A stretch of 33,508 nt of DNA from Rhodoferax sp. OV413 (GTDB taxonomy: Bacteria; Pseudomonadota; Gammaproteobacteria; Pseudomonadales; Pseudohongiellaceae): contig CALQJO020000031.1 of NCBI GenBank assembly GCA_943330915.2, positions 1 through 33,508 on the forward strand, given 5' to 3'. The notes under the pieces are model-generated. The model saw nothing but the letters and a program-made list of their open reading frames with translations. It was not told the origin of the DNA and did not search any database. Shown piece by piece: positions 1 through 8,041 of this stretch. Every line of letters begins with the position of its first letter. Position 1 is the stretch's first letter. The translations under genes were made by a program, and so were the position numbers.

Positions 1-256
1 ATGCGAATCCTTCCTTGGAAGTGCTTTCAAACCAAGCTGGAATTTCCGTCAGCAGCGACAAGTCCCTCTGCCTGGCCAATTGATCCTGCAAAGAAAGAAT
101 AGCTTCATTCAAACGCGTGGACTTTGAATCATCTAGTTTGAGTTTTGATAGTTCCTTTATTTTTTCATCAAGTTTCTTCCTGATAGGGAACAATTGTGAA
201 TCTTTTTCAACGACTTCGAAGTAATCTAGAATTGATTCAATAATTTCAGTGTTCAT
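1..256 (-). CDS. Start of the next cas gene after cas2-3 (probable type I-F effector subunit, Csy1/Cas8f position), cut by window edge
   Basis: An open frame begins with ATG at 256-254 and stays open to base 1, giving 85 codons that start MNTEIIESILDYFEVV. The start is well supported: the ATG follows the cas2-3 stop TAA with no gap (TAAATG), and GGAG lies about 7 nt upstream. The visible part is charged and helical, with Lys/Glu/Asp-rich stretches. In standard type I-F loci the gene after cas2-3 is csy1 (cas8f), the large subunit of the Csy surveillance complex, and position is the main reason for this call. I do not recognise the usual Csy1 N-terminal motif (a Trp/Ala-rich segment followed by a THP-like signature), though that may simply lie beyond the edge. 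It could also be a subunit of a variant I-F system. Confidence 0.55.
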   Translation of the reverse strand, partial: MNTEIIESILDYFEVVEKDSQLFPIRKKLDEKIKELSKLKLDDSKSTRLNEAILSLQDQLARQRDLSLLTEIPAWFESTSKEGFA

Positions 257-3200
257 TTAATCTCCTTCAGTGCTATATACACCCAAAACCGGATGGTAAT
301 GCCACATATCGGCATTCTGCTTTACCCTTAGCCGGACTTCACCAAACTGCTTGCTCACTTCTTCAATCGTTAATGCCATTTTTTCTGCATGCTGTCGATA
401 GACTGTCAAAGCATCCAGCGCAAACCATGCATGATTTCCATGTGCAGGAATCCAGCTTTCCATTGTGAAATTTTCCGCCTCAATGTATTCCGGTGGCCAA
501 ACCGCATCATTTATCCGTTTAAACAACGGCTCTTCGTCCTCTTCAGTTAACATCAGGCAGTAAGGTTCATCTGGTGAGGACTTACGAAACGGTGTACGTT
601 TCTGTAATTCTGCACACCAGCTGGCATCGTGTTGCCACCATCGTGCTGCATAATTCGGTGGCCAAACTGGGTTGTCTGAATCGGCGCTAGTTGCTTGAGA
701 AAATAAACTTTGAAGTAGTGCCAAATGTTCAAATACCACAAGGTCGCTATATATCTTTGATGGCACTAATTTGGGCTGAGTAATGCGAGGAACTGCGCTG
801 ATGTGCTGAAAATATTCTGCAGGCAAAATAGTTTTGAGATCATGGCTTACTAGTCTCAAATCATCTCGCTCAAAACCAGGGCGACAATAAGCAGGTTTAA
901 GTTTTCCATAGCTATCTGTTGCTGCTTTTAATGCTTTAAAATTTTGCGACAGGATAAGCAGATTATCGCTACCTGCCGGCAGCTGTCGGTGCCTTTGAAT
1001 TCTGCCGGCCAACTGAATGAGTGATCGCATTGAGCTGGGCTCGGCTATAGCCCAATCATAGTCGTGGTCTCTGCCAACTTCAGCCACAGAGGTAGCCAGT
1101 ACGACAAACACGTGATTGCTTTCCGGATAGTCAACTAACGCTTGTTTAATTTCGGCTTGCTGCCAAAGTGCAGATTCGTTGTAGCGTGTCAGAGCTGAAT
1201 CAAGCTTCTGTTCTATCGCAGAGCGCAAAGCTAATGGATACTGGCTATGGTAAACGCAATAATGGAGGCGATAGTCTGCGGGTACAGACATCTGCAATAG
1301 CTGCTTGGCAACCGCCACCATAGGGTCAATGTTCGCCATACGTACCAAGCCAACTGATACCCTTTGGCCCGTGACAGCCGGTTGATTATGCTGGCTGTGC
1401 AGCTGACAAATGCTTTGTTGAATAATTTCAGCCAGCTGTCTGATTATCAGGTCCGGGTTTTTACTGGTAGCGTTGATATCCAGCAGTCTAGCTTTGCGCA
1501 GCACAGGCTGCAGAGCCAGCGCCTTTACTCTCTTATCAACAAAGGTCAAATGATGCTGCATCAGCTGGCTTCTATCTGAGCACTCTGCTTTTGTGGCGGT
1601 AAACTCATCAAACCAGCCACAGATAACAGGCAGCCGAGTTCTGCCATCAGAATTTACTGCGTTAAATTGTTCTCTGCCTGAGTTGTAGGCGTCAAAAAGC
1701 GCACATACCAGCACCGGGGGCAGCGTGGCCGAAGAAAAAAGTACTCTTGCGCCCAACATTCCAGCCCAGTTAACTAATCGGCAAAGAGCCGGCAGATCAG
1801 ATGTGTCGAAGTCATCAGGCTCATCCAGCACCAAATCAGCCGTCAGTAACCGCAACATAGGTGCGATCTGTTTGCCGCCGCGCACGCCTTCAGTTGCCGG
1901 CATCAGATGATCAATAGTGCTAACTAATACCGGTGCACTTACAAGTTGGTTTAATTTAGGGCTGCTATTCAACCAATCCTTTAACCTGCCGTCATACAAG
2001 CTCCCCTCATAACTTACATACAGGTGCTCAGCAATCGGATCGGCCAGCGACTCGCTGCCACTGCGACTATTACTAATAGCCTGTTCAGCCAGTTGCGACT
2101 GCTTGCCGATACTGTGTAATTGTTGCACTGCTGCTGAGCCTATCAACACCGCTAAGTCATCATCGGTGAGGTGAAGGCGTGCCTTTAATGCATCACCGGT
2201 TTGTAATGTCAGTGTTCTAAGACCTAATGCCACACTAAAACGGCAGCCCAACTTCTCGTTAGCAAGACCATACATAATGCGGGCATTGGCAAAGGTTTTG
2301 CCCTTGCCAGTACTGGCCATATTTATACCGAAAAAGCCCTGAGCAACGCTGGTCTCTCGAACCGAGCAGGCTAAATCATAAGCTTTATCCTGCCAGCGAA
2401 ATTTTTCCAACTTAGCTCTTTGTTTAAATCCTTTATGTCGGGTGATAGCAGGTAGAGTATTTTTTAAATTTGGCAAACTTTTTGCGAGTAGATAGGCGTT
2501 GTGGCTAACGCCAATATTGTGCTCGTCTAATTTTTGCTTAAGGGCATGTGTCTTGCGATCAGAGTTGGCAAATGAGGCATAACTTGTATCTTGCCATTTT
2601 GCCTTAGGTTCTTGAGCGGAGTAATAATGATCAGCAAGCATCAATGTGAGCCTTGCTGTATGGCTGGTAAAGCGCTGCTCTAACCAATCACATTCAAACA
2701 GTCTCTTGCAGTTCATTGCTCTTTGAGCCAACTCACCGGCTTTTTGCCTCCAGGTTGCGCTGCGGAATGGCGTGCCGTTGATAAAAAACCAGTTATTATC
2801 ACGTTGCTGTTGTTCCCAACTATCTGCACTATTTACCGAGTTCCATAACACATCAAAGTTATTGGATAGCCAAGTATCAATATCTTGCAGAACGGGTTTT
2901 GTATCAGATTTATGATCAGGAAACACGGGCAATCTGTGATGTGAGACTACTAACCATGCCACCAATCGTGCAACGGGAGCTAAACCTTCAAACGGTAGAA
3001 GAGATTTCTCCGTTGGTGTATCTCTATGTAAATTCGCCAAGACGGTTTTCTCAGTCTCTGCAGAAATACTTTTTAATGCTGTTAGCCACTCCTCATCTTT
3101 TTTTGCTGCTGCAAAAGCCTGAAATAAGCGAAGTGATACCCATTCATGTCTATAGGGTTCAAAGCCGGGCGTTTTTACTTTAGGGTTTATTTTGTTCTGA

Positions 3201-3595
3201 AACAGTAGGTTCGCTTTACCAAAGTCATGAAACAGTCCAGCGATACCTGCCAGTAATGCGATGACCTCAGCGTTATGCCAGGTATTTTCATCTTCACTGC
3301 GTAAGATGTTGCGTTCTGTCATATTAGTTGGAGTAGCCCCATCCGCATTAAACTTTTGCTGATTACCCACTATCCATAGCAGTTCGGTATGGTTTTTACT
3401 GCGGATCCAATGACAGGCGACTGCAGTATTGCGTCGAGCTGTCTTTTTTAACAGCTTACGCAACACATCTAGCCCTTGTAAGGTTATTGGAGTTTGCCAG
3501 GTTCTATCGCCACGACGCTCTGCAAACTGGTCAATAATACGCCGCGTTTCGCTCAACGCATTTTTTGAGCATTGAGAAACCAGCATGATATTCAT
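257..3595 (-). CDS. cas3: Type I-F Cas2-Cas3 fusion nuclease/helicase
   Basis: This 1112-aa protein is the fused Cas2-Cas3 of type I-F CRISPR systems. It degrades target DNA recruited by the Csy complex and, with Cas1, forms the spacer-acquisition complex. Residues about 1-95 form the Cas2-like part. An HD nuclease domain follows, with the HD pair at H123-D124 (GLFHDFGKA) and more histidines at 150 and 219-220 (VSHHRLP). The SF2 helicase has Walker A at 427-434 (ASTGKGKT), a DEPD box at 591-594, SSAT at 621-624, motif V near 833-842 and motif VI at 861-870 (QLAGRIQRHR). All catalytic motifs look intact, and the length is normal for the family. Its ATG overlaps the cas1 stop by 4 nt (ATGA), so the two genes are translationally coupled. 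The next cas gene starts directly after its stop. Confidence 0.95.
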   Translation of the reverse strand: MNIMLVSQCSKNALSETRRIIDQFAERRGDRTWQTPITLQGLDVLRKLLKKTARRNTAVACHWIRSKNHTELLWIVGNQQKFNADGATPTNMTERNILRSEDENTWHNAEVIALLAGIAGLFHDFGKANLLFQNKINPKVKTPGFEPYRHEWVSLRLFQAFAAAKKDEEWLTALKSISAETEKTVLANLHRDTPTEKSLLPFEGLAPVARLVAWLVVSHHRLPVFPDHKSDTKPVLQDIDTWLSNNFDVLWNSVNSADSWEQQQRDNNWFFINGTPFRSATWRQKAGELAQRAMNCKRLFECDWLEQRFTSHTARLTLMLADHYYSAQEPKAKWQDTSYASFANSDRKTHALKQKLDEHNIGVSHNAYLLAKSLPNLKNTLPAITRHKGFKQRAKLEKFRWQDKAYDLACSVRETSVAQGFFGINMASTGKGKTFANARIMYGLANEKLGCRFSVALGLRTLTLQTGDALKARLHLTDDDLAVLIGSAAVQQLHSIGKQSQLAEQAISNSRSGSESLADPIAEHLYVSYEGSLYDGRLKDWLNSSPKLNQLVSAPVLVSTIDHLMPATEGVRGGKQIAPMLRLLTADLVLDEPDDFDTSDLPALCRLVNWAGMLGARVLFSSATLPPVLVCALFDAYNSGREQFNAVNSDGRTRLPVICGWFDEFTATKAECSDRSQLMQHHLTFVDKRVKALALQPVLRKARLLDINATSKNPDLIIRQLAEIIQQSICQLHSQHNQPAVTGQRVSVGLVRMANIDPMVAVAKQLLQMSVPADYRLHYCVYHSQYPLALRSAIEQKLDSALTRYNESALWQQAEIKQALVDYPESNHVFVVLATSVAEVGRDHDYDWAIAEPSSMRSLIQLAGRIQRHRQLPAGSDNLLILSQNFKALKAATDSYGKLKPAYCRPGFERDDLRLVSHDLKTILPAEYFQHISAVPRITQPKLVPSKIYSDLVVFEHLALLQSLFSQATSADSDNPVWPPNYAARWWQHDASWCAELQKRTPFRKSSPDEPYCLMLTEEDEEPLFKRINDAVWPPEYIEAENFTMESWIPAHGNHAWFALDALTVYRQHAEKMALTIEEVSKQFGEVRLRVKQNADMWHYHPVLGVYSTEGD

Positions 3596-4575
3596 GGTTC
3601 GTCTCCATGCACTGCTGCTATATCTTTCAAGCTGTCGATTATGTAATCCAAAGCTTCAGCTTGTTGAAAATTGGTGATACAGCTTTGCCGAAATTGCTGT
3701 TCGTCGTCTCCGTTCATGGCGCTGATGAATGCTTGTGGCAGAACCAGCGCATCCTTGATCAAGTCGGCCGCATCGAATACCAAACCACCTCTGCGGGTTT
3801 TACCATGCAACACTGAGAAACCATGAGGCAGGCCCAGCACCCAAGTTGCGGTAGCTCCCAAGCCGTAAGCTAAATAATTGCCGTGATCTAAAAAGCGATT
3901 TGTAGGGTCTATACCAGTGCCACCTTTGGCGCGTGTAAAGCTGTCATCGTGGGCGAGGGTGTTACACGCAATTTTGTAAAGTAATTTGGTCAGACGTGCT
4001 TCGGCCAGCATCAGTGACTGAGTGCCATCAGCGGCATTTACATCTTGTGTGAAACGAGACAGTGCTGATTCCAATTGTTTTGCGCTGACCGCAAACCCAT
4101 TTTCGATAAAATATCTGTTTTTGAGCCAGTGCTTTAACGTGAAATCCATCCTGAACTGTTGAATCGATTTGGCTGCCTGCAGCCTCTTGCTGTCGTCAGG
4201 CCAAAATTTTAACCACTGTTGCAAATACTCACATGGTCGATATTCGCTTTGCGGATTAAACCAAGCGACTTCGATTTCAACATCATTGGCACTAAACAGC
4301 GGTGTGCCGCCGCCTCCGCAGAAGCCCACTAATACGCCGGCCCGTGCCAGTTCCCGCATTGCCGCCTGAGTGATAGAGGTGCCGGTTCCCAGCAATACAG
4401 AGGTGGTGTTTGCGATTGGTATATTCCAATACAACGAATGTTTGCCTTCATCAGTGACGTATTCAACCCGGCCGCCTTTAACTAATACTCTGCAATGCTG
4501 CAGGTAATACATGTTTGCCCGCTTGGAATGCAGAATGCTTTTCAAATCTGACGGTGAAAAATCGTCCACTGGCAT
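3592..4575 (-). CDS. cas1: Type I-F CRISPR-associated integrase Cas1
   Basis: This 327-aa protein is Cas1 of the I-F type, the integrase that inserts new spacers into the CRISPR array. Family features are the N-terminal beta region (RVLVKGGRVEYV, residues 29-40), the glycine-rich stretch GFCGGGGTPLF near 84-94, and the C-terminal helical catalytic domain. The expected metal ligands are visible: E192 in LMLAEARLTK, H257 in SVLHGKTRRGG, and D268/D271 in LVFDAADLIKD. It is followed by cas2-3 with a 4-nt overlap. The ATG at 4575 has AGGG about 5 nt upstream. Only 39 bp separate it from the BRO/DinD-like gene upstream on the same strand, with no T-tract hairpin between them. A lone TTGACA at 4618-4613 could be a -35 element, but no -10 stands at the right distance. 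Confidence 0.95.
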   Translation of the reverse strand: MPVDDFSPSDLKSILHSKRANMYYLQHCRVLVKGGRVEYVTDEGKHSLYWNIPIANTTSVLLGTGTSITQAAMRELARAGVLVGFCGGGGTPLFSANDVEIEVAWFNPQSEYRPCEYLQQWLKFWPDDSKRLQAAKSIQQFRMDFTLKHWLKNRYFIENGFAVSAKQLESALSRFTQDVNAADGTQSLMLAEARLTKLLYKIACNTLAHDDSFTRAKGGTGIDPTNRFLDHGNYLAYGLGATATWVLGLPHGFSVLHGKTRRGGLVFDAADLIKDALVLPQAFISAMNGDDEQQFRQSCITNFQQAEALDYIIDSLKDIAAVHGDEP

Positions 4576-4614
4576 TTATCCCTATTCTCAGGCGATTGGT
4601 AAATGATCGTACTG

Positions 4615-5454
4615 TCAATTACTCCCGCGTATTTCTTTGGCTGGGGAGGTCAAATAATTCCCAGAATTCACCACCTTCCCCCCAGTCTGATCCTCAAGCG
4701 CAACCCGCGCATCCTTCGCAATTTTCCCACCGCTCCTTGCAGCCACTTTGTTCTCATTCATTCCAGTCGCGTTTTTCGTTTCCGCAATCTTGCGCGTGGA
4801 CAACTCAGCCAGCGCTGTAAAAATTAATTCCGCTTCACTCATGTGATCACGCAGGTTCTGGCTCTTGAGTCCTTTTAATTCCTTGTGCTCTTTGACACTG
4901 ACGGCTGCCCATTCCTGATGAATGATATTGGTGAGAATGGCAAACTCTGATCCCTTCTTGATGTCGTGGTTTGACCAATAGTCCGTGAGCTTGTTGCGGG
5001 TTTCCTGCCCCATCATACGTTGTTGAATCCACTTCTCGCTGCGGCCGTGTTTTTGCCACGTGTCTCGTGCTCGATTCAGCGATAGTGCTGGATCTGCAAG
5101 CTCCTGCATACGCTCGTAACCCACTTTGGCCAGCCAGAGTTTGATGTGTTCTGCCTTGGGGCTGGGGATCGACTGCACAAGTCTCAGCAGAGTTTCGGCG
5201 GTGGCGACATCCGTCAGATAGCTCTTTCCGTCTGCCGCTGGCAATTTCAGTCGGTTACATTCTGTAACCGACTGGCTGCCTTCTTTTCCAAGCCTGTTCT
5301 TTAATACTTTCCAGTAGTTGCGGGCAGCCTGATAATCCGCCTGCTGCGTCAACACCTGCACAATATCAACCACCGAGAACCACCATATCTCAGCGTCTTC
5401 GTCGTAGACGCGGCGAATCTTGTAATCCTCGAATAAGGTCATGTCGGCTTTCAT
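4615..5454 (-). CDS. BRO-N / DinD-like DNA-damage-inducible protein
   Basis: This 279-aa protein has an N-terminal BRO-N domain (about residues 8-110, including EIWWFSVVDIVQVL). The basic C-terminal half ends in the SGGKIAKDAR...GNYL signature (about 241-268) shared by DinD-type and phage antirepressor-like proteins. BRO-N domains bind DNA in phage and viral proteins. E. coli DinD is a LexA-controlled BRO-family protein that affects RecA filaments. I chose ATG 5454 because GGGAG lies 8 nt upstream; a GTG three codons earlier overlaps that site. The promoter just upstream carries a LexA box, which fits the DinD assignment. The gene is on the same strand as cas1 and ends 39 bp before it, so it may be the first gene of a transcript that reaches the cas genes. 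The biochemical role here is not known. Confidence 0.8.
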   Translation of the reverse strand: MKADMTLFEDYKIRRVYDEDAEIWWFSVVDIVQVLTQQADYQAARNYWKVLKNRLGKEGSQSVTECNRLKLPAADGKSYLTDVATAETLLRLVQSIPSPKAEHIKLWLAKVGYERMQELADPALSLNRARDTWQKHGRSEKWIQQRMMGQETRNKLTDYWSNHDIKKGSEFAILTNIIHQEWAAVSVKEHKELKGLKSQNLRDHMSEAELIFTALAELSTRKIAETKNATGMNENKVAARSGGKIAKDARVALEDQTGGKVVNSGNYLTSPAKEIRGSN

Positions 5455-5506
5455 CGTTATCACTCCCTGATGGTTAACATAGTTGACGCGTGAGACAAAA
5501 CATGTC

Positions 5507-5522
5507 CTGTATATAAATACAG
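5507..5522 (-). promoter_or_regulatory. LexA (SOS) box ahead of the BRO/DinD-like gene
   Basis: The plus strand reads CTGTATATAAATACAG, an exact CTGT-N8-ACAG box with the alternating A/T centre of the gammaproteobacterial SOS consensus. By eye, 17 of 20 positions match the extended E. coli consensus. On the minus strand the box begins at the last base of the -10 hexamer and covers the expected transcription start, the usual place for LexA repression. The start codon lies 52 bp downstream. Confidence 0.85.
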
Positions 5523-5550
5523 TTATATCAGGGTTTTTGAAGTACGTTAA
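5522..5550 (-). promoter_or_regulatory. Sigma-70 promoter of the BRO/DinD-like gene
   Basis: On the minus strand a -35 hexamer TTAACG (5550-5545, 4 of 6 matches) is followed, after exactly 17 nt, by a -10 hexamer TATAAC (5527-5522, 5 of 6 matches). The -10 shares its last base with the LexA box. The promoter lies inside the last codons of the WYL gene, whose stop is at 5530-5528, so the BRO gene can be transcribed independently of the WYL gene. Confidence 0.65.
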
Positions 5551-6499
5551 GCCCGTCTTGCAGTCGGGAAATCAAACTACGGCGCAAGCTAAGTGGGCTT
5601 TCGACAATAACCTCTGGCACGTATCTCATCAGGTCGCGTACCAACTCACGCTCATCGTTGTACTGAAAACTAAGCACATAGTCATCGCCATCCCACCGGC
5701 CGACTTGTTTCGGATGCCACTGCTGCATGGAAATTTCGCGTGCAATTGCTTTTTGAAACCGCAGCGTTGCCGTGTGGATGCCCTTGCCGGCAAAAATTCC
5801 GTAGCTGCCTGAAAAATGCTCTTCTCTGTCTTGTCGGGAAACTACATGCGCTGGAAGGTTGTTGCCGCTGGGAATAATGTGGTCAATACGTGCCAGGCTG
5901 AAGCTGCGGATAGCGTGTTGGTTATGGCACCAAGCGTCCAAATACCAGTTGTCTCTGTAGTAAAGCAGACTCTGTGGGCTGACGATGCGGGTGCTGGTCT
6001 CGCTGCTAAAGTTTGTGTAAACGATGCAAATCTGGCGGGACTTGAGCAGTGCGTCACCGACCTGAAGAAAGATGTCATTTGGAATACTTCGGTGCCCAAG
6101 GGGTAGAACTTTGATGCGATCCATCAATGACTTTGGGTCAATTTTTCGGGTTTTTAGCAGCTTGTGGACTTCGTGCTCGACGGCTTTGAGTTCTTCGTTC
6201 AACAGGCCGTTACCAAATTTTTCCAGAACATGCAGTAGCAGCGCCATTGACTGGAGTTCTTCAGCCGTCAGCCAAAGGCCTGGCAGCTGAAACAGTTCAC
6301 CAGGGGTATTAACGTAGGCCCAGCCTTTGCCTTGTACGTAATCGACCGGTGCTGAAAAGTAATCGCGCAAAGAATCGATAAGACGGCGGACGGTTTTGGG
6401 GGTGCACTCAAGCTTTTCCGCCAGAGTGTTTATTTGGATCGGGTGGCGATGAGTTGTGAACAGTTGATGCAACTGTTGCATGCGATCGAGCTTATCCAT
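5528..6499 (-). CDS. WYL-domain transcriptional regulator with N-terminal winged HTH
   Basis: This 323-aa protein starts with a DeoR-like winged helix-turn-helix (about residues 5-60, TLAEKLECTPKTVRRLIDSL) and carries a WYL domain in the middle (about 145-230), with the name-giving residues at W185-Y186-L187 in YYRDNWYLDAW. A WCX-type extension follows to the C-terminus. WYL regulators often control defence or DNA-damage genes and sense nucleic-acid ligands in some members; the ligand here is unknown. ATG 6499 is preferred to the GTG at 6529 because AGGAAG stands 5 nt upstream and the HTH starts right after it. The gene lies upstream of the BRO/DinD-cas block on the same strand, and a perfect 27-bp dyad sits ahead of it. 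It may regulate itself and the neighbouring genes. Confidence 0.88.
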   Translation of the reverse strand: MDKLDRMQQLHQLFTTHRHPIQINTLAEKLECTPKTVRRLIDSLRDYFSAPVDYVQGKGWAYVNTPGELFQLPGLWLTAEELQSMALLLHVLEKFGNGLLNEELKAVEHEVHKLLKTRKIDPKSLMDRIKVLPLGHRSIPNDIFLQVGDALLKSRQICIVYTNFSSETSTRIVSPQSLLYYRDNWYLDAWCHNQHAIRSFSLARIDHIIPSGNNLPAHVVSRQDREEHFSGSYGIFAGKGIHTATLRFQKAIAREISMQQWHPKQVGRWDGDDYVLSFQYNDERELVRDLMRYVPEVIVESPLSLRRSLISRLQDGLNVLQKP

Positions 6500-6541: not shown

Positions 6542-6568
6542 CACTGGGTGACACCCTGTCACCCAGTG
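6542..6568. promoter_or_regulatory. Perfect 27-bp dyad upstream of the WYL gene (candidate operator)
   Basis: Two perfect 12-base arms, CACTGGGTGACA (6542-6553) and TGTCACCCAGTG (6557-6568), flank a 3-base centre (CCC). The dyad lies between the serine hydrolase stop and the WYL start, 43 bp ahead of ATG 6499. No T-run follows on either strand, so a regulator site is more likely than an intrinsic terminator. WYL autoregulation is the simplest guess. Confidence 0.55.
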
Positions 6569-6592: not shown

Positions 6593-7894
6593 TCAATTCA
6601 ACACCGCCTCATACACCACACGCTGTGCCACGTTGTTATCAAACGGTACCCCGCGCGGGCCACCGCGGCGCTGCTCCATGTAGATCATAAAAAATTCATT
6701 TTCCGGATCGACCAGGAACAGTGTGCCTCCAATGCCGCGCCAGCCAAAATTGTGTGCGCCGTCGGGGTTGCTGGCATCCACCGGCTGCAGGTGGAAACCC
6801 ATGCTCCAGTCGCCGCGGTCGCCGTAGAAGAAAAACTCGCGCGACACGTCGGGGGTGATGCGTTTTTCCTGCATCAGCGCCAGCGTTTCCGGATTAAGGA
6901 TACGCGCGCCATTGTATTCGCCGCCTTGCAGCAGCATCTGCGCAAAACGGACGTAGTCTTCAGTGGTGGAGTTCAGACCGCCGCCGCCGGAGAGTTGCGG
7001 GCGTGCAGTGGTGTTGTCGGCCATCTCGCCGTGAATGGGCTCGGCGATGCGTGCTGCTTTGGCAGCGGGTACGTAGAAGGTGGTTTCATCCATGCCCAGC
7101 GGCTCAAAAATACGCTCGTTAAGGATGGCGTCCAGCGGTTGGCCGGCGGCGACTTCCAGCACCGCACCCAGCACGTCGGTGGAGTGGCCGTAGTGCCAGG
7201 CGCTGCCGGGCTCAAAGAACAGCGGCAGTTTGCCGATGCGCTGCGCCACTTGCAGGTTGGTGAGGCTGCCGTCGCCGGGAATCTGCGCGGCATAGGATTT
7301 TCCCAGGTCGGTATCCGGCGAAAAAATCGCCTGAATCAAACCGGACTTGTGCGTCAGCAGGTGTTCAACGGTCATCACGGTTTGTGCTGGAGTCAGCGCG
7401 CCGGTTTCTGAGTTGACGACCTGCATATTGCTGAATTCGGGAATGTATTTGCTGACGGGGTCGGACACTGACAGCAGGCCGTCTTCTACCAGATCCATGG
7501 CGGCCACGCTGACAATGGGTTTGGTCATTGAATAAATGCGGAAGATGGTTTGTGCATCAATCGGTGTGGCGTCGCCCGGCCCTTGGGTGCCGACGCTTTC
7601 CAGCATGGCAATACCGTCTTTGTTGCCAACCAGCAGCAATGAACCTGCCAGATGTCCGCTGGTTATGGCCTCTTGCATGCGTGATTTGATGTCGGCGATT
7701 TCAGCGCTGGTGATGCCGAGTGCGCCAGCATCAATCATGGTGATGGAGTTGTCGGTTTGTGCGGTTGCCAGGCCTGCGCTGAACAGCAGCGTTGAGCCTG
7801 CTAACACGGCGGTTGCCAATCGGTTAAGTGCTGATGGTTTAAATGCTGATGGTTTAAATCCGAATGACGTTGAAAAAATGCGGGTGTGTTGCAT
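6593..7894 (-). CDS. Exported serine hydrolase of the beta-lactamase / class C-esterase family
   Basis: This 433-aa protein belongs to the beta-lactamase-like serine hydrolases (class C enzymes, D-Ala-D-Ala carboxypeptidases and family VIII esterases). The nucleophile motif S-M-T-K is at S122-K125, the tyrosine motif Y-G-H starts at Y235, and a late NFGWRGIGG stretch stands where the third motif is found. YGH and the missing K-T-G fit an esterase better than a true beta-lactamase. ATG 7894 was chosen: AGGGGA lies 8 nt upstream and a signal peptide follows (basic N-region, hydrophobic core, cleavage near AQT). A longer frame to 7987 has no supporting site. The signal region carries a 15-bp exact tandem repeat (FKPSA twice). 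The substrate is unknown, and the gene is divergent from the DAACS symporter. Confidence 0.85.
   Translation of the reverse strand: MQHTRIFSTSFGFKPSAFKPSALNRLATAVLAGSTLLFSAGLATAQTDNSITMIDAGALGITSAEIADIKSRMQEAITSGHLAGSLLLVGNKDGIAMLESVGTQGPGDATPIDAQTIFRIYSMTKPIVSVAAMDLVEDGLLSVSDPVSKYIPEFSNMQVVNSETGALTPAQTVMTVEHLLTHKSGLIQAIFSPDTDLGKSYAAQIPGDGSLTNLQVAQRIGKLPLFFEPGSAWHYGHSTDVLGAVLEVAAGQPLDAILNERIFEPLGMDETTFYVPAAKAARIAEPIHGEMADNTTARPQLSGGGGLNSTTEDYVRFAQMLLQGGEYNGARILNPETLALMQEKRITPDVSREFFFYGDRGDWSMGFHLQPVDASNPDGAHNFGWRGIGGTLFLVDPENEFFMIYMEQRRGGPRGVPFDNNVAQRVVYEAVLN
7829..7858. repeat. Exact 15-bp tandem duplication in the serine hydrolase signal region
   Basis: The unit TGCTGATGGTTTAAA occurs twice in a row (7829-7843 and 7844-7858). 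It encodes two copies of a five-residue block ahead of the hydrophobic core of the signal peptide and keeps the frame. Confidence 0.85.
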
Positions 7895-8041
7895 GGCGGT
7901 TTCCCCTGCCTTTATTTTTGGAGTGGCCCGATCATAATCCAGCCCCTGTGCTGACACAATCTGGCAGTAAGGTTGGGCAGCGATCACTTTGCCCGTGGTA
8001 GACTCCGGTCATTACAAGAAGACATTCAAAAGGCGCAACTT

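Follow-up and report, generated by a model that had tools for sequence, protein, structure and literature searches.

The described systems closest to the gene analysed here, a Bro-N gene directly upstream of cas1 in contig CALQJO020000031.1 of Rhodoferax sp. OV413, are Escherichia coli DinD, Deinococcus radiodurans DdrC, the PADLOC candidate PDC-S13, and the adaptation genes of type I-F clustered regularly interspaced short palindromic repeats (CRISPR) systems with a WYL regulator. DinD is cited as acting on, or inhibiting, RecA filaments (PMC4457935). DdrC is described as damage-induced, through DdrO/IrrE in its own host, and as binding single- and double-stranded DNA, protecting DNA, and promoting its circularisation (PMC5436757). 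PDC-S13 is a model of a candidate single gene and is silent on LexA, cas1 linkage, and palindromes. According to two further papers, type I immunity raises SOS genes (PMC8754663) and is accompanied by SOS induction (PMC12409350). In the open-licence literature, no paper linking DinD or Bro-N to cas genes and none describing an in-gene palindrome was found.

The whole stretch of 33,508 nt that was analysed is termed the window, and all coordinates refer to it. At its left end, a minus-strand cluster runs from a WYL regulator through the Bro-N gene, cas1, and cas2-3 to an open reading frame (ORF) truncated at the contig end. In the best explanation, to which a probability of about 0.5 is given, the Bro-N gene is a member of the DinD/DdrC superfamily that is repressed by LexA and has turned into an accessory of the CRISPR adaptation module. 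The locus resembles type I-F loci with a WYL regulator, since Cas1f and Cas2-3 exceed their family cut-offs and a WYL gene is located upstream, a neighbour shared with 10 of 29 other Cas1f loci; it differs in the additional LexA-boxed gene between WYL and cas1, and in that the assembly yielded neither cas6f nor cas7f.

LexA box, promoter, and probable read-through into cas1

As the preliminary description had proposed, an exact SOS box (CTGTATATAAATACAG) was found at the -10/start site of a well-spaced promoter (TTAACG-17-TATAAC), beginning at the final base of the -10 element (Table 1). The box pattern CTGT-N8-ACAG occurred twice in the window versus 0.55 expected; because two or more matches were also reached in 11 of 100 shuffles, the count alone proves nothing, and the second match (3439-3454, inside cas2-3) is probably due to chance. 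The expected frequency would allow the promoter box to be a chance match as well, but this is highly improbable in view of its placement on a promoter, its all-AT centre, its identity to the E. coli dinD box, the like boxes on host SOS genes, and the homologue boxes at a similar distance. The whole genome contained 47 box matches versus 30 for the reversed control, and the neighbours of the boxes were read in 17 stretches, covering part of the 47 sites. The host lexA gene (contig C11, 217 bits) is preceded at 27 nt by the box CTGTATATACTTACAG. Two further genes have a box 20 nt upstream: CTGTTTTTATTTACAG precedes an ImuA-like gene, which scored 149.8 bits (cut-off 150), and CTGTATAAATAAACAG precedes a gene for an error-prone DNA polymerase that is truncated at a contig end and scored 377 bits (under the full-length cut-off of 939).

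Of 127 homologue upstream regions, four (those of the window and loci L066, L075, and L096) contain an exact LexA box, placed about 45-70 nt from the start. The mean in Markov shuffles was 0.12, and none of 300 shuffles reached four; when the 80 loci surveyed below were divided into 8018 tiles of 150 nt, six tiles held an exact box. The E. coli dinD gene has the same 16 bases on the opposite strand relative to the gene, from 61 nt before its start. With a consensus box on its promoter and a genomic LexA that uses that box, the Bro-N gene is very probably under LexA control, as had been claimed from the window alone.

Equally in line with the preliminary description, the gene ends 39 nt before cas1 on the same strand: the gap has no terminator-like site on the minus strand, and the weak folding possible there is not followed by a T-tract. 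A simple scan of the minus strand from the Bro-N gene to cas1 revealed no other promoter-like site, a weak negative, as the same scan missed the proposed LexA promoter because it requires T at the sixth -10 position. Judged from the arrangement, read-through from the LexA promoter into cas1 appears rather probable. A point absent from the preliminary description is that the -35 element falls within the 3' end of the WYL gene, whose stop lies just upstream of the Bro-N gene, so the cluster may also be transcribed from the WYL promoter. Alternatively, LexA might govern the Bro-N gene alone. Expression of cas1 and cas2-3 would then depend chiefly on the WYL promoter or on a cas1 promoter that escaped notice, with SOS read-through blocked by protein bound to the palindrome described below. 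The location of that palindrome between the LexA promoter and cas1 and the presence of a WYL gene upstream of cas1f in 11 of 30 Cas1f loci (window included) would suit this arrangement; the lack of a promoter-like site on the minus strand at 4576-5500 in the simple scan and a gap of just 39 nt make it unlikely.

Table 1. Features of the Bro-N/cas cluster in the window and palindrome-bearing genes of other families
Feature	Position	Strand	Remarks
ORF start, after cas2-3	2..256	-	Interrupted by contig end (window 1-256)
cas2-3 (type I-F)	257..3595	-	TIGR02562, 1297 bits, cut-off 566
cas1 (type I-F)	3592..4575	-	TIGR03637, 500 bits, cut-off 150
Bro-N to cas1 gap, 39 nt	4576..4614	-	Possible ribosome site
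Bro-N/PDC-S13 gene, 279 aa	4615..5454	-	Bro-N 31.5 bits; PDC-S13 391 bits; DdrC-like predicted fold
In-gene palindrome CAGTCGGTTACA-NNN-TGTAACCGACTG	5248..5274	.	Coding nt 181-207 of Bro-N gene; perfect 12-bp arms
LexA (SOS) box CTGTATATAAATACAG	5507..5522	.	Consensus CTGT-N8-ACAG, all-AT centre
Promoter	5522..5550	-	-35 TTAACG 5550-5545, 17 nt, -10 TATAAC 5527-5522; 9/12 consensus bases
WYL-domain regulator	5528..6499	-	HTH_11 + WYL + WCX; ORF to 6529; stop 5528
Second palindrome CACTGGGTGACA-NNN-TGTCACCCAGTG	6542..6568	.	12-bp arms, 43-69 nt before likely WYL ATG
Palindrome-bearing KilA-N/RhuM/AntA/DUF1016 genes	L044 3943-4773; L205; L206; L209; L215; L068 11867-12904; L104 11738-12625; L170 1313-2320		

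The Bro-N ORF is longest from GTG 5463, and ATG 5454 was judged to be its best start; the likely start of the WYL regulator, ATG 6499, was set by eye against other WYL genes. The ORF behind cas2-3, a position usually occupied by cas8f, had no match in Pfam, NCBIfam, or PADLOC. An Rfam scan of the window gave no match. Positions 6593-7987 encode a beta-lactamase-fold protein, probably an esterase, with methyl acetate hydrolase AcmB as the top NCBIfam match (below cut-off).

The Bro-N protein, its relatives, and their link to cas genes

The name BRO/DinD given in the preliminary description stands at the superfamily level. The protein matches Pfam Bro-N and, over residues 3-271 and thus nearly its full length, PADLOC PDC-S13 (391.3 bits), to which E. 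coli DinD also belongs; both proteins have a Bro-N and a C-terminal domain, both genes have the identical LexA box, and a weak palindrome lies at the matching coding position of dinD. The narrower name was not borne out: the protein did not match the NCBI DinD equivalog model (NF008573) even at E 10, against 488 bits (cut-off 242) for E. coli DinD, and the two are 28% identical over 98 aa. Furthermore, there is no cas gene within the 8 kb of the K-12 genome examined. By these matches, the gene is a sister subfamily of DinD within PDC-S13.

The AlphaFold model (48 rows; predicted local distance difference test score, pLDDT, 85.6; predicted template modelling score, pTM, 0.62) gave six Foldseek matches in the PDB at E <=0.001, all of them DdrC chains (best E 2.7e-7, probability 1.00, template modelling (TM) score by query 0.29-0.42, 12-14% identity). 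A sequence profile match to DdrC (E 0.002) covers residues 134-229, the C-terminal part only. DdrC is damage-inducible and differs in its regulator. From these matches, we read the Bro-N protein, DinD, and DdrC as one superfamily of damage-linked DNA-binding proteins, in which the Bro-N protein may or may not belong to DdrC proper. By analogy with the latter two, the protein could have an end-holding or RecA-linked role, for which the chances are put slightly below even.

Relatives were taken from a scan of genome contigs as a confirmed set, the best 80 of at least 555, with 68-82% identity across many phyla. Cas genes were found no more than 6 kb away from ten of the 80, and restriction-modification genes no more than 4 kb away from 21; the other 49 had neither kind close by. 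Neighbours were called using tblastn at 1e-8 with a small number of proteins from the same loci as queries, and the cas and restriction counts are therefore probably lower bounds. The queries for cas1, cas2, cas4, cas6f, the type I restriction, methylation, and specificity subunits, and two type IIG enzymes were confirmed by PADLOC; for cas3, cas5, cas7, and cas8 in the I-C loci, and for a single methylase-like query (L072), the names were given by eye. Matches to type I subunits were found in 15 of the 21 restriction-linked loci, some of them weak or 2-4 kb away (L034, L056, L082, and L095).

In all ten cas-near relatives, the nearest match of each cas query was co-oriented with the gene. In the I-C loci L029, L030, and L097, the layout is cas4-gene-cas1-cas2-array, with a 4-nt overlap between the gene and cas1; L098 has this order too, but its gene is shortened. 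Other layouts are cas7-gene-cas4-cas1 (L074 and L101), cas1f-gene-cas2-3 start (L028), and cas6f-gene-array (L007/L037, genome G033, with an array of about 39 repeats). Among 369 Gammaproteobacteria genomes, 41 had a Cas1f match above 200 bits and only 14 a close Bro-N match above 400 bits. The two genes are adjacent in 4 of the 41 Cas1f genomes, with the Bro-N gene before cas1 in the window and G528 and between cas1 and cas2-3 in G346 and G418; G430 has it in an I-C locus (L141). In G418 (L192/L134), a DinD-equivalog gene is also present about 0.6 kb upstream of the cas1f whose downstream side is occupied by the Bro-N gene. In G263 (L133/L205), a KilA-N gene (PADLOC PDC-S22) directly 3' of cas1f takes the place held by Bro-N in G346 and G418. 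In G161 (L003/L008), which belongs to the same genus as the window's host, a broken Bro-N copy lies next to an 18-bp hairpin, and inspection by eye recognised no cas gene in the vicinity.

A tree of 115 rows, from which L098 and L151 were left out on account of stops, placed the window in a clade of eight from I-F and I-C loci, all cas-linked (support 100/89; bootstrap not settled). Cas linkage required 4 changes versus 11 when shuffled, among the 34 rows labelled cas or restriction; as 81 rows are unlabelled, the number of gains is uncertain. The distribution also bears on the alternative that this is a mobile gene landing in defence operons with its own LexA promoter and palindrome, having no CRISPR role and only a polar effect on cas1. 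Such a gene would be expected to show the high identity across phyla, the occurrence near restriction genes, on viral contigs, and elsewhere, and the varied positions in cas operons (before cas1, between cas1 and cas2-3, and between cas6f and the array); the boxed relatives L066, L075, and L096 with neither cas nor restriction genes nearby and the broken copies in the cas loci L098 and L151 fit it too. On the other side are the complete cas linkage of the window's clade across two subtypes, together with the co-orientation with all cas matches and the 4-nt cas1 overlaps, which suggest selection for co-expression. A gene without a CRISPR role is thus a minority possibility, though one of real weight.

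Palindrome inside the Bro-N gene

The more novel result of the analysis is the palindrome within the Bro-N coding sequence (Table 1). In the window, it was equalled in 10 of 20,000 synonymous recodings. Perfect arms of at least 8 bp were present at a fixed site in 103 of 116 usable homologue coding sequences, and random synonymous recoding produced such arms at the same site in 2.7% of 23,200 trials; the 116 sequences are related and hence not independent tests, and 79 of them individually reach the floor of the recoding test. At other positions of the same genes, the longest palindrome was 5-6 bp in 93 of 116. The fixed site contained 58 distinct palindromes, and in 74 distinct centre-aligned 29-mers, 89% of cells were paired, versus 63% with the right arms dealt out and 13-24% when slid. 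All 110 palindromes of at least 7 bp were centred on the middle base of a codon. The distant members L009, L154, L156, L159, L171, and L182 have kept the palindrome with different letters; none was found in L178 and L180. On the basis of the synonymous-recoding nulls, the idea that the peptide sequence dictates the palindrome was rejected.

DinD-like loci had arms of at least 7 bp at the matching site in 13 of 18 distinct loci, with none at that site in L188, L189, L193, L199, and L200; the arms in E. coli dinD are only 7 bp long and were equalled in 101 of 5000 recodings. Overall, most Bro-N and DinD genes have a perfect palindrome at a fixed codon position, with matched arms and varying letters, the loci concerned being the window, L009, L154-L182, L027 (dinD), L084, and L190-L201. 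In a survey of arms of at least 11 bp, for which 1248 ORFs were labelled with our own expressions, such arms were found in 69/104 Bro-N, 9/12 DinD, 5/8 KilA-N, 1/5 RhuM, 1/1 AntA, and 1/1 DUF1016 ORFs, and in 11 of 1117 other ORFs, five of which were Bro-N or DinD missed by the labels. The RhuM, AntA, and DUF1016 rows were confirmed by Pfam, and 4 of 12 Pfam-found KilA-N places had a palindrome. The palindromes in KilA-N, RhuM, AntA, and DUF1016/YhcG genes are perfect, 11-17 bp, and located near coding nt 175-205; in none of the eight genes bearing them were the arms equalled in more than 5 of 1000 recoding trials.

The palindrome core GGTNACANNNTGTNACC has two matches in the whole genome, one in the Bro-N gene and one before the WYL gene. 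The two palindromes are the only ones of at least 12 bp in the window, and 20 shuffles had none. In all 14 Bro-N genomes the core was present inside the gene, and in 11 of these nowhere else; G307 has an extra copy beside a Bro-N fragment. Among 14 genomes without the gene, G269 and G278 had one core match each (as did the reversed control) and G331 a control match only. A genome-wide regulon site was therefore rejected, the core being confined to the gene in 11 of 14 genomes and at control level in those lacking it. A general WYL operator was also rejected: no palindrome of at least 7 bp was found up to 200 nt before the gene in 7 of 10 other WYL loci of I-F or I-C type, and the remaining three (L125, L074, and L097) have unrelated ones. 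The relaxed core had no matches in the examined stretches of five further WYL loci (L121, L130, L131, L133, and L137). Extra palindrome copies near the gene were observed in L055, L058, L061, L063, and L065, some of them resembling fragments of the gene itself.

Two functions of the palindrome were considered. It may be an autoregulatory operator for the Bro-N protein, as is tentatively proposed here. Alternatively, it could act as an RNA hairpin or DNA cruciform, affecting message stability or translation or serving as a recombination site; arms of 8-17 bp with short loops could fold, and there is usually one core site per genome. This second function is considered unlikely, given that G-T accounts for only 8 of 103 non-paired cells, so that wobble is not favoured, that in many copies the pairing comes within 1 nt of the centre, leaving too little room for an RNA loop, and that the WYL gene has a second copy upstream at operator distance.

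Candidate mechanism and significance

The accessory-gene reading joins features seen in the sequence (gene order, LexA box, promoter, palindromes, family, predicted fold, and recurrent cas1 linkage) with steps that we infer, namely induction, read-through, the activity of the protein, and the reader of the palindromes. In undamaged cells, LexA would occupy the start site, and the cluster would be transcribed at a low level from the WYL promoter. DNA damage, including DNA ends arising from interference or phage attack, would lead to LexA cleavage and firing of the promoter, and the message would pass the 39-nt gap into cas1 and cas2-3. The Bro-N protein might then bind DNA ends or single strands, holding or shielding them as DdrC does, or temper RecA as DinD does, near the breaks made by Cas2-3 and the ends used by Cas1. 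Both palindromes could be operators for the Bro-N protein, forming a negative loop on the whole cluster. In a broader and still tentative form, mobile defence-linked genes (Bro-N/DinD, some KilA-N, and at least some RhuM, AntA, and DUF1016) would carry an operator inside the coding sequence of their own DNA-binding domain, a portable autoregulation throttling downstream genes; here, cas1 and cas2-3 would have a LexA-controlled start and a stop by the gene's own product, with a second operator at the WYL promoter.

Several findings weigh against the accessory-gene reading. The gene is not dedicated to CRISPR, with restriction-modification neighbours in 21 of the 80 relatives and neither kind in 49, and the cas-linked copies in L098 (shortened) and L151 (two stops) indicate that it can decay in such loci. 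The DdrC matches have low TM-scores and root-mean-square deviations of 11-16 A, so the domain arrangement either differs or is wrongly predicted, and the reported DdrC binding without sequence specificity is a poor fit to an operator-binding role. The WYL-linked second palindrome was found in this genome alone. The contig stops after cas2-3, and cas6f and cas7f had no match at E 0.001 in the draft (2.89 Mb, 97% complete), which means either an assembly gap, a possible reason here, or loss of the effector genes. The term interference genes in the preliminary description may therefore overreach. Finally, the window is alone among the 16 cas-linked homologues in having an exact LexA box; L028, L141, and L151 have 7 of its 8 core bases.

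The wider occurrence for which the preliminary description suggested a search was not recovered in other genomes, where the gene recurs beside cas1 without a LexA box, and an SOS-CRISPR link as a clade trait was rejected (0 of 15 other cas-linked homologues). As 15 of 16 lack the exact box and the gene is common near restriction genes and elsewhere, the wiring of SOS to cas1 may be particular to this strain, while the tie of the gene to cas1 and the palindrome recur. If the accessory-gene reading is true, the locus would wire the SOS response directly to CRISPR adaptation, and cas1 of I-F and I-C loci would have a DinD/DdrC-type protein as a recurrent partner. Type I immunity is already reported to induce SOS genes (PMC8754663), so transcription of cas1 from a LexA-driven promoter would close that loop. 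The in-gene palindrome may represent a general type of control element that has been overlooked in mobile defence genes, those of DinD's family included.

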